Origin: Rhizomicrobium sp.
Lineage (GTDB): Bacteria; Pseudomonadota; Alphaproteobacteria; Micropepsales; Micropepsaceae
Length of the DNA: 64,000 bases
NCBI GenBank assembly: GCA_037200385.1
Contig: JBBCGL010000001.1
Coordinates: 3,797,418 to 3,861,417, forward strand
Direction of reading: 5' to 3'
Shown here: in pieces, positions 2,000 through 3,758 of the stretch
How positions within the stretch are numbered: position 1 is the stretch's first letter
Layout: every line of letters begins with the position of its first letter
Notes under the pieces: generated by a model
What the model was told of the DNA's origin: nothing
Databases searched by the model: none
What the model saw: the letters and a program-made list of their open reading frames with translations, nothing else
Program-made: the position numbers and the translations under genes

Positions 2000-2018
2000 G
2001 TCTTCGTCTCCAGGCAAC

Positions 2019-2048
2019 AAAAAAGCCCCGGACCTTGTCGCGGGGCTT
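2019..2048 (-). terminator. Intrinsic terminator in the asd leader
   Basis: An 8-bp stem (AAGCCCCG / CGGGGCTT), a 10-nt loop and TTTTTT, in the minus-strand direction. It ends 20 nt before the asd start codon and follows purK, so it could simply end the purEK transcript. Its left arm can alternatively pair with an upstream segment, which makes it the terminator of the proposed attenuator. Confidence 0.85.
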
Positions 2049-2072
2049 CGGATCGGGCGATGCGTTGGTTTC

Positions 2073-2144
2073 CTACGCGCGCGCGCTCTCCGAAGCCCGG
2101 CCGGGCTTCGTCGTGGTCGTCTTGCGCTTGAAAATCGTCAGCAT
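2073..2144 (-). CDS. Putative Thr-rich leader peptide of asd
   Basis: A 23-codon ORF starting ATG at 2144 and ending TAG at 2073. It begins MLTIFKRK, then has four consecutive Thr codons (ACG ACC ACG ACG), a Lys, and a short R/S/A-rich tail; five Thr and three Lys in all. An AGGG about 9 bases upstream is a modest ribosome site. It starts 22 nt after the purK stop and ends 24 nt before the terminator stem. The run of threonine codons immediately before RNA arm 1 is the feature expected of a leader peptide that senses Thr-tRNA. Too short for any family assignment. Confidence 0.7.
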   Translation of the reverse strand: MLTIFKRKTTTTKPGRASESARA

Positions 2145-2166
2145 CGCGGCGGACCCTATTGTCCGC

Positions 2167-3264
2167 TCAGGGCTTCGTCAACGGCCCGAGCGTGGTGAAG
2201 TGTCCCATCTTGCGTCCCGGCCGCGCCTCGCCCTTGCCGTAGAGATGCAGCGCGCCCGGCCGTGCCGCATAGGTCTGCCAGTCGAGCGCTTCGGTGCCGA
2301 GGATGTTCTCCATCACCGCGTCGGCATGGCGCGTGGGATCACCCAGCGGCCAGCCGGCGACGGCGCGGATATGCTGCTCGAACTGGCTGACGGCGCAGGC
2401 TTCCAGCGTCCAGTGTCCCGAATTGTGCACCCGCGGCGCGATCTCGTTCACCACCAGCGCGCCATCCGCCATCACGAACAGCTCGACGGCGAACACGCCG
2501 ACATAGCCGAGCGCGTCGCCGATCTTGCGCGCGATCGCTTTCGCCGCATCGCATTGCGCCGCTGTCAGCCGCCCCGGCACGGTCGAACGCCGGAGGATGT
2601 GATGCTCATGCGCGTTCTCCGGCGGATCGTAGGCCGCGAAGGCGCCGTCCTGGCCGCGCGCCGCGATCACCGAGGCTTCGAACACGAAATCGACGAAGCT
2701 TTCCAGGATCGCCGGCGCGCCTTTGAAGCGGGTGAAGGCCTCCGCCGCCTCGGCGGCGCTCGCCGGCTTGGCCTGGCCCTTGCCGTCATAGCCCAGGCGC
2801 CGGGTCTTGAGGATCGCGCGGCGGCCGAAGGCCTCGAACAGGGCCGCCGCGTCCGCCGCCGAATCCACCGCGGCGAAGCGCGGCGTCGTCAGCCCGAGCG
2901 ACTGGACGAACGTCTTCTCGTCGAAGCGGTCCTGGGTGCGGCGCAGGGCTTGTGCCGAAGGGTGGACCGGCTTCAGCCGTGCGAGCTGCGCCACGGTCTC
3001 GGCCGGGACGTTCTCGAATTCGAGCGTGATCGCATCGCAGCCTTGCGCAAAGGCGGTGAGCGCCGCCGCATCGTCGAACTTCGCAACGGTGTGCGCGTCG
3101 GCGACCTGCGACGCGGCCGATCCGGGATCGTCGCAGAAGATATGCGCCCTCAACCCCAGCCTTGCGGCGGCGAGCGCCAGCATGCGGCCGAGCTGTCCGC
3201 CGCCGAGAATCCCGATCGTGCCGCCCGGCGCCACGGGCGCGGCCAAGGTCCGCATCTCGCTCAT
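2167..3264 (-). CDS. purK: N5-carboxyaminoimidazole ribonucleotide synthase
   Basis: ATP-grasp enzyme that carboxylates AIR to N5-CAIR in purine synthesis. The 365-aa protein has [17 protein letters not shown] near its N-terminus, ITLEFENVP, the ATP-grasp core around [12 protein letters not shown], and [14 protein letters not shown]. The start at 3264 gives an ATGA overlap with the purE stop, a sign of translational coupling, and matches family length; the frame stays open 16 codons upstream inside purE. It is the second gene of a purE-purK operon. Confidence 0.95.
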
Positions 3265-3758
3265 TTGTCGGACGGCGCTTCCGCGACCGAGTCGGTCTGC
3301 CGGGCGCGCCACGCCGCCAGCCGCCGCGCCAGCGCCTTGTCCGACAGGGCGAGGATCGCCGCCGCATGCAGCGCCGCGTTCTTGGCGCCGCTCTCGCCGA
3401 TGGCGAAGGTCGCGACCGGAACGCCGCCAGGCATCTGCACGATGGAGAGCAGGCTATCCATGCCCTTGAGCGCCTTGGACTCCACCGGCACGCCGAGCAC
3501 GGGCAGAGTGGTGAAGGACGCCGTCATGCCCGGCAGATGCGCCGCGCCGCCGGCGCCCGCGATGAGGACCTTCAGCCCGCGCCCCGCCGCCGCCTTGGCA
3601 TAGTCGCGCATCCGGTCGGGCGTGCGATGCGCCGAGACGATCCGCGCCTCATGCGCGACGCCGAGGCTGTCGAGGAGTTCCGAGGCCGGCTTGAGGGTGG
3701 GCCAGTCCGACTGGCTCCCCATGATCAGGCCGACCAAAGGCTTCGGGTTCGCGGGCAT
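3261..3758 (-). CDS. purE: N5-carboxyaminoimidazole ribonucleotide mutase
   Basis: Converts N5-CAIR to CAIR, the step after PurK. The 165-aa protein carries [12 protein letters not shown] (phosphate-binding segment) and SAHRTPDRM, both hallmarks of class I PurE, plus the [11 protein letters not shown] loop. Strong ribosome site AAGGGAAG before the ATG. First gene of the purE-purK pair, overlapping purK by 4 bases. Confidence 0.96.

Follow-up and report, generated by a model that had tools for sequence, protein, structure and literature searches.

A putative ribosome-mediated attenuator with a threonine- and lysine-rich leader peptide before a second asd gene in Alphaproteobacteria

Results

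The window analysed here, a stretch of 64,000 nucleotides from a Rhizomicrobium genome, carries on its minus strand a purK-like gene, a short open reading frame (ORF), a series of complementary RNA arms, a run of T residues and the gene for aspartate-semialdehyde dehydrogenase, asd (Table 1). A sequence-only reading had described this ORF as the leader of an attenuator, and the leader ORF, arms 1–4, the T-run ending at 2019 and the asd ATG at 1999 are all present in the minus-strand sequence, so that an intrinsic terminator (hairpin and six T) precedes the structural gene. Besides the four consecutive Thr codons the leader has Thr at codon 3 and Lys at codons 6, 8 and 13; Lys6 and Lys8 lie just 5′ of Thr9–Thr12, and Lys13 just 3′.

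Table 1. Features of the asd leader region in the window
Feature	Positions	Strand	Basis or remark
purK-like gene 5′ of leader	2167..3261 (ORF 2167-3312)	minus	name from the sequence-only reading; its end carries the -35 box
-35 box TTGACG	2176..2181	minus	inside the last purK codons
-10 box TAGGGT	2153..2158	minus	by eye; 17-nt spacer; ends 8 nt before leader ATG
Leader ORF MLTIFKRKTTTTKPGRASESARA	2073..2144	minus	23 codons, ATG 2144-2142, TAG 2075-2073; conserved in relatives
Putative stall codons Thr9-Thr12, ACG ACC ACG ACG	2109..2120	minus	read from sequence
Arm 1 CGAAGCCC	2103..2110	minus	1:2 covariation
Arm 2 GGGCTTCGG, anti-terminator 5′ arm	2090..2098	minus	2:3 covariation and arm-swap test
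Arm 3 CCGAAGCCC	2043..2051	minus	2:3 and 3:4 covariation
Arm 4 CGGGGCTT, terminator 3′ arm	2023..2030	minus	3:4 pairing
T-run (six T) of intrinsic terminator	2019..2024	minus	sequence
Shine-Dalgarno GGAGA of asd	2007..2011	minus	picked by eye
asd (aspartate-semialdehyde dehydrogenase), second copy of the genome	989..1999 (ATG 1999-1997)	minus	Pfam PF01118 and PF02774

The window holds 584 ORFs of 14–32 codons (both strands, ATG or GTG starts, nested starts tallied apart), of which 43 have at least three Thr in some eight codons and 6 have four; only the leader ORF combines at least three Thr in eight codons with a stable hairpin and a T-run no more than 110 nt away. For the 127-nt stretch the folding energy is −53 kcal/mol (z −2.36), a value matched by 2 of 200 shuffles. 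An Rfam scan of the leader gave no family at gathering score, and what it listed up to E 5 was no better than chance. One such weak match, Atu_C8 (RF02502; 16.7 bits, E 1.3, the gathering score being 50 bits), was found in 5 of 289 genomes of the class, one of them (L132) above the cut-off; L132 lies before an MFS-transporter-like gene (by eye) without a Thr-rich leader, and the Atu_C8 lead was dropped.

Regions upstream of asd were collected from 130 loci (L001 and L003–L131, some being one organism from two collections), and leaders were called by a heuristic score that rewards Thr and Lys. A Thr/Lys-rich leader precedes asd in 113 of the 130 loci, 107 of them distinct (114 were called, with L076 a chance call). 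A score of 9 was reached by 107 of the 130 native upstream regions versus 0 of 1300 dinucleotide shuffles, and a score of 7 by 111 versus 11. No leader was called in 17 of the 130 loci (L057, L065, L071, L074, L075, L076, L080–L082, L084, L117–L122 and L131); seven of these (L065, L071, L075, L076 and L080–L082) are titled as other classes or phyla, and L117 and the five copies of genus label g6 (L118–L122) have no Thr/Lys leader before asd. L068, titled Marinimicrobia, nonetheless has one. Within the window's genus the leader is present at 36 of the 36 second-copy asd loci read, a count that includes L084 and leaves out the cut copies of G008, G018 and G037. At L084 promoter, leader and terminator are intact, and a transposase-like stretch (by eye) parts the leader from the second asd, a natural case of asd severed from its own putative attenuator by insertion.

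Codons 2–15 of the 107 distinct leaders are 43% Thr and 19% Lys, values biased upward by the selection. The third base of the Thr codons varies across leaders (ACG 246, ACC 378, ACT 21, ACA 3), Lys codons are present in 107 of 107, and two loci, L069 and L072, retain the scaffold although their leaders have a single Thr. Examples of the peptides are MTAELKRTTTTTKPFGALVRAR (L085), MFTTTKRTTKTTTAFGARGGVRA (several Bradyrhizobium), MLRFATKTTTTTKTTTFGGPARTCA (L059, Reyranella), MSKRTMKTKTPLSRAALDSARQA (L124) and MFATPIIIKRITKTTAPAGRPSVLAR (L079, with Ile). In addition to Thr and Lys, the leaders of L079 and L124–L128 have codons for other products of the aspartate pathway, either Ile (III..ITKTT) or Met (KRTMKTKT, at L124, L126 and L128). 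The placement before asd, which the sequence-only reading called unusual, is not confined to this genome: ten or more family labels of Alphaproteobacteria show it.

For covariation we aligned 49 diverse sequences of the 107 distinct ones, thinned at 0.90 similarity and required to have a clear 3:4 match. Against 500 shuffles, which ignore kinship, the covariation score was 0.250 for 1:2 (shuffle mean 0.114, reached by 0 of 500), 0.173 for 2:3 (0.106, 0 of 500) and 0.117 for 3:4 (0.080, 1 of 500), and 3:4 was paired in 96.7% of cells across the 49 sequences. On a weaker measure, pairs changed on both sides, the native values for 1:2, 2:3 and 3:4 were reached by 17, 489 and 229 of the 500 shuffles, the 2:3 count of 4 being not above them; on a further weak measure, that of further pair types, they were reached by 21, 23 and 229. 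The arm-2/arm-3 duplex of 85 distinct sequences averaged −25.06 kcal/mol, versus −23.23 kcal/mol when arms were permuted (0 of 5000 permutations, z −6.5, kinship again ignored), and a foreign arm 3 beat the own arm 3 in 35.5% of cross pairs on average. Thr-codon conservation and covariation of 1:2, 2:3 and 3:4 thus support the layout of ribosome-mediated attenuation claimed by the sequence-only reading. The pattern that it had named as contrary, a terminator kept with the Thr codons or arms 1 and 2 lost, is not what the relatives display, since at least three Thr remain in 105 of the 107 distinct leaders and all three pairings covary. Judged by sequence comparison, mutually exclusive 2:3 and 3:4 pairings together with 1:2 constitute the predicted architecture of an attenuator.

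The dependence of pairing on ribosome position was modelled in 94 leaders, with the ribosome footprint held open, all other RNA free, and the stall placed at the middle Thr of the densest stretch. The median probability of the terminator pairing, P(3:4), was 1.0 for free RNA, 0.050 with the ribosome stalled and 0.9998 with the ribosome at the stop codon; the terminator is predicted to be rare under stalling and near certain at the stop. P(3:4) was lower when stalled than at the stop in 91 of 94 leaders and higher in 3; it fell below 0.2 when stalled and exceeded 0.8 at the stop in 51 of 94, and stayed above 0.5 when stalled in 33 of 94 (35%). For the window the values were 0.11 stalled, 1.0 at the stop and 0.17 without a ribosome. 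Without a ribosome the window's alternative folds are thus close to degenerate, although the minimum-energy structure, computed for a stretch that differs slightly, contains 1:2 and 3:4. A cruder model that drops the RNA 5′ of the ribosome gave a median P(3:4) of 0.048 stalled and 1.0 at the stop, the latter largely by construction because that RNA is left out, with a switch in 53 of 94 leaders, stalled values above 0.5 in 30 of 94 (32%) and, for the window, 0.064 stalled and 1.0 at the stop. When the segment from the stalled ribosome to arm 3 was shuffled, the mean P(3:4) rose to 0.91, compared with 0.35 for native RNA, which was the lower in 79 of 94. From the position of the Thr codons and from these models, a stalled ribosome is predicted to cover arm 1 and free arm 2, although roughly one relative in three does not show this outcome.

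Of 104 leaders, 91 have a −35-like hexamer (TTGACN, TTTACN or TTGCAN) in the 45 nt upstream. The hexamer begins 37 nt ahead of the start codon of the leader in 60 of the 91, and 35–39 nt ahead of it in 87; in 44 of the 91, 8 nt separate the best −10 from that codon. This spacing predicts transcription initiation at the leader AUG or directly beside it; for the window, the sequence predicts a leaderless ORF whose RNA begins with the A of the ATG or a nucleotide adjoining it. Among the 13 leaders lacking a −35-like hexamer are loci whose leader start codon adjoins or overlaps the stop of the gene before it. At L088, L090, L091, L094, L096 and L111 the leader is separated from purK by an additional ORF, with its stop overlapping or abutting the leader start (GTGA/ATGA), and the leader there may therefore be translationally coupled and not leaderless.

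The genome holds two asd genes, the other copy (G000:C1:3545382-3546362) being 47% identical to that of the window. An asd match at E 1e-60 or less was found in 133 of 147 related genomes, many of the window's genus having one copy per type, and of 26 genomes, mostly picked for carrying the leader, 22 had two asd at E 1e-40 or less and 4 had one (G378, G125, G131 and G090). By eye, no Thr-rich leader lies upstream of the first copy in the window's own genome (L002). Of 38 usable upstream regions of first-type asd, 35 were readable (L149, L163 and L165 gave no motif), and in 32 of the 35 no small ORF had more than three Thr in any ten codons; these 32 include 10 of the window's genus (L166–L173, L176 and L177), where the leader was found at 0 of the 10 copies read, and L174 from another genus of its family. 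The other three (L138, L153 and L158, from three families) have the first-type asd after a different, longer upstream ORF that ends in a Thr/Lys cluster with five Thr in ten codons. Because the first copy shows no such leader, the attenuated asd probably encodes an isozyme kept in reserve, to be induced when amino acids of the aspartate family are scarce.

A covariance model of the leader (R1) matched the window at 110.3 bits (E 4.7e-28), the next match in the same genome scoring 37.9 bits. The latter (L179, G000:C1:380415-380532) has a small ORF, MNSNRLSSRRRTTLRWGG, arms and a T-run before a GNAT acetyltransferase gene; it may be an attenuator of the arginine type or may simply have the terminator in common. 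A search of the class gave matches at E 0.01 or less in 159 of 385 genomes, many of them surely chance. Among the best 29 loci, which were opened (L186–L214), 15 lie before asd, spanning ten family labels (f1, f171, f93, f87, f66, f122, f128, f145, f51 and f39), 10 before a short thrS, encoding a truncated threonyl-tRNA synthetase (L191, L197, L199, L200, L202, L204, L207, L208, L211 and L212), and 4 before neither (L203, L205, L213 and L214). L213 precedes a gene of the dihydrodipicolinate-synthetase family (PF00701), and its leader, MILNRRHNAQVKWAPMPGPEDRRAR, has no Thr or Lys run.

A Thr-rich leader accompanies 9 of the 10 short-thrS matches (that of L191 was not seen), and five of the short synthetases have, by Pfam, the catalytic core and anticodon domains only (the L202 query was cut at 400 residues). 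Two thrS were listed in 2 of 190 genomes (G254 and G125), in which the full-length thrS has no such leader. A thrS match was found in 175 genomes, and of 30 loci opened, 2 were short with a leader of four Thr in eight codons; the 28 long thrS loci had at most three Thr in eight codons in any small upstream ORF. With the leader at short and not at long thrS, the scaffold therefore appears on second copies of two threonine-related genes.

In some relatives of the window element the T-run is weak or absent. At L059, L062, L066, L079, L126, L192, L195 and L206 a hairpin, e.g. GTCTCC/GGAGAC, hides the Shine-Dalgarno sequence (SD) of asd and the U-run is weak or missing; the SD-hiding stems differ between lineages yet stay paired. 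We compared 26 weak-U-run loci, listed loosely by eye and including some that do have a T run (L061, L100 and L189 among them), with the others: with the ribosome at the stop, the SD was buried (P unpaired below 0.3) in 21 of 26 versus 28 of 73, and with shuffled spacers it was more open than native in 24 of 26 versus 43 of 59. Only 7 of the 26, versus 8 of 73, had the SD opened by more than 0.2 when the ribosome was stalled. In these models the SD-hiding hairpin looks to be under selection, and a translational output coupled to the leader is at most a possibility at the weak-U-run loci.

Discussion

Taking comparative sequence analysis and fold models together, we consider it very probable that the window element is a ribosome-mediated transcription attenuator of the second asd. 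Its anatomy, the conservation of that anatomy, the covariation of the alternative pairings and the prediction that pairing changes as the ribosome moves come directly from the sequence and its comparison among relatives; where transcription starts, that it actually terminates, and that it responds to Thr and to Lys is what we infer from them. RNA polymerase would start at or next to the leader AUG, followed by a ribosome translating the leaderless 23-codon ORF. When charged tRNA-Thr (and tRNA-Lys) is plentiful, the ribosome would reach the stop codon, and arm 2 would be kept off arm 3, partly by the ribosome or by re-forming of 1:2; arm 3 would then be free for the 3:4 terminator, and transcription would end near 2019. 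When tRNA-Thr or tRNA-Lys is uncharged, the ribosome would stall in K-R-K-T-T-T-T and cover arm 1, allowing 2:3 to pair, so that no terminator would form and asd would be made.

Sensing of Lys besides Thr by the asd leader seems somewhat more probable than not, and is favoured because at least two Lys occur in 101 of 104 asd leaders versus 1 of 8 thrS leaders that share the scaffold (for one Lys or more, 104 of 104 versus 4 of 8), with the reservation that the rows are related and the asd leaders were selected by a score counting Lys. In a sub-case of the attenuator to which we give appreciable but lesser weight, only the Thr codons would sense, and the Lys codons would serve RNA pairing or codon context. 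Lys13-Pro14 is indeed spelled by the arm-1 letters AAGCCC, which places Lys13 in arm 1, and leaders average 6.2 Thr versus 2.7 Lys; however, 103 of the 104 asd leaders keep a Lys neither adjacent to nor one residue from Pro, and pairing or codon context fits poorly with the difference in Lys from the thrS leaders.

A different possibility, which we regard as unlikely, is that the leader acts mainly in trans as a small RNA and/or small protein, with control of asd secondary, like rnTrpL/peTrpL of Sinorhizobium meliloti. The accessible text of PMC7298713 describes trpL as leaderless, with products that act in trans, and a leaderless ORF with a terminator is predicted here too; what the peptides keep, however, is mainly a composition rich in Thr and Lys together with residues encoded by the arms, as expected of a stall cassette. 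A plain terminator after purEK, joined to a chance ORF and without regulation, has next to no probability left. The sequence-only reading had put the element behind purEK, and it does lie directly 3′ of purK in the window genome and in many of its genus, but it has its own predicted promoter in the 3′ end of purK, and leader and arms are kept where purK was not found nearby (checked at Bradyrhizobium and Reyranella loci). We take the plain-terminator reading as refuted because the element is conserved apart from purK; the covariation of 1:2 and 2:3 and the absence of score 9 from the 1300 shuffles speak against it as well. A riboswitch or T-box in place of a leader peptide, for which we found no point in favour, is the least credible of all, given the lack of an Rfam family at gathering score in the leader and the recurrence of the Thr/Lys-rich ORF in most of the asd loci.

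The attenuator at asd may be one instance of a wider arrangement, which we put forward tentatively and with a little less than even confidence: one scaffold would serve in Alphaproteobacteria as a threonine-starvation switch on reserve enzyme copies, namely the second asd, with Lys codons added so that both aspartate-family branches are sensed, and the truncated second thrS, mostly with Thr alone, leaving the first copies free; in lineages with a poor U-run it may instead act translationally, via the conserved SD hairpin. If the attenuator is real, it would place a charging-sensitive switch at the lysine/threonine/methionine branch point, on a duplicated gene, across a large part of the class including plant symbionts such as Bradyrhizobium. 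It makes testable why cells keep two asd genes and whether a single leader can integrate two amino acids. For annotation, about a hundred leader peptides are gained, along with a covariance model that finds such leaders.

Attenuation of enteric thrABC by thrL relies on a Thr-rich leader peptide, 1:2/2:3/3:4 arms and an intrinsic terminator, and the enteric threonine leader is an Rfam family. The window element shares the Thr-rich leader, the arms and the intrinsic terminator with thrL, and differs in its target, asd and not thrABC, in having Lys and not Ile codons beside Thr, in its predicted leaderless ORF and in matching no Rfam family. The ilvB leader, an amino-acid leader peptide from the same bacterial class as the window, concerns branched-chain amino acids and stands before a different gene. 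The key comparative study, Vitreschak et al. 2004, may touch on an asd attenuator. An ilvB leader peptide of Alphaproteobacteria is mentioned in the accessible text of PMC1273637. In Caulobacter crescentus, trpS is preceded by a leader ORF (PMC4117421, in part), which, like the thrS leaders here, stands before an aminoacyl-tRNA synthetase gene; the synthetase is a different one, and the window target is biosynthetic.

In a literature search thin on subscription papers, we found no asd attenuator in Alphaproteobacteria apart from the SEP5 suggestion discussed below. The accessible portions of a premature terminator survey (PMC2965389), a study of alphaproteobacterial RNA motifs (PMC1273637), a Caulobacter map (PMC4117421), an S. 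meliloti sRNA survey (PMC2873474), Gluconobacter RNA-seq (PMC5756330) and a paper on S. meliloti attenuation (PMC12218461) contain none. The mechanism itself is established; for the family and its targets we found no description in the literature searched.

In S. meliloti, trpL/rnTrpL is a ribosome-dependent attenuator of trpE(G) with its leader ORF at the RNA 5′ end (PMC7298713 and PMC10117765, in the parts available). Like the putative attenuator of the window it comes from an alphaproteobacterium, and the promoter spacing at the window leader would fit a leaderless ORF as well; the trpL codons are Trp and the target is trp, and trans action of RNA and peptide is reported for it. Of the accounts that we found, the one nearest to the window element concerns the S. 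meliloti small ORF SEP5. It has six Thr and three Lys codons, has been suggested to be a leader peptide, sits in the 5′-UTR of a gene that its authors call aspartate dehydrogenase, and is described as conserved only in Sinorhizobium (PMC10117765, in part). Compared by description, SEP5 has its Thr/Lys cluster towards the 3′ end, as do the ORFs of L138, L153 and L158, whose ends, e.g. ...TTKTATKTAGKTTGV, resemble it; the cluster of the window leader is placed differently. The accessible part of the SEP5 account gives no arms or terminator (PMC10117765), whereas the window element has both.
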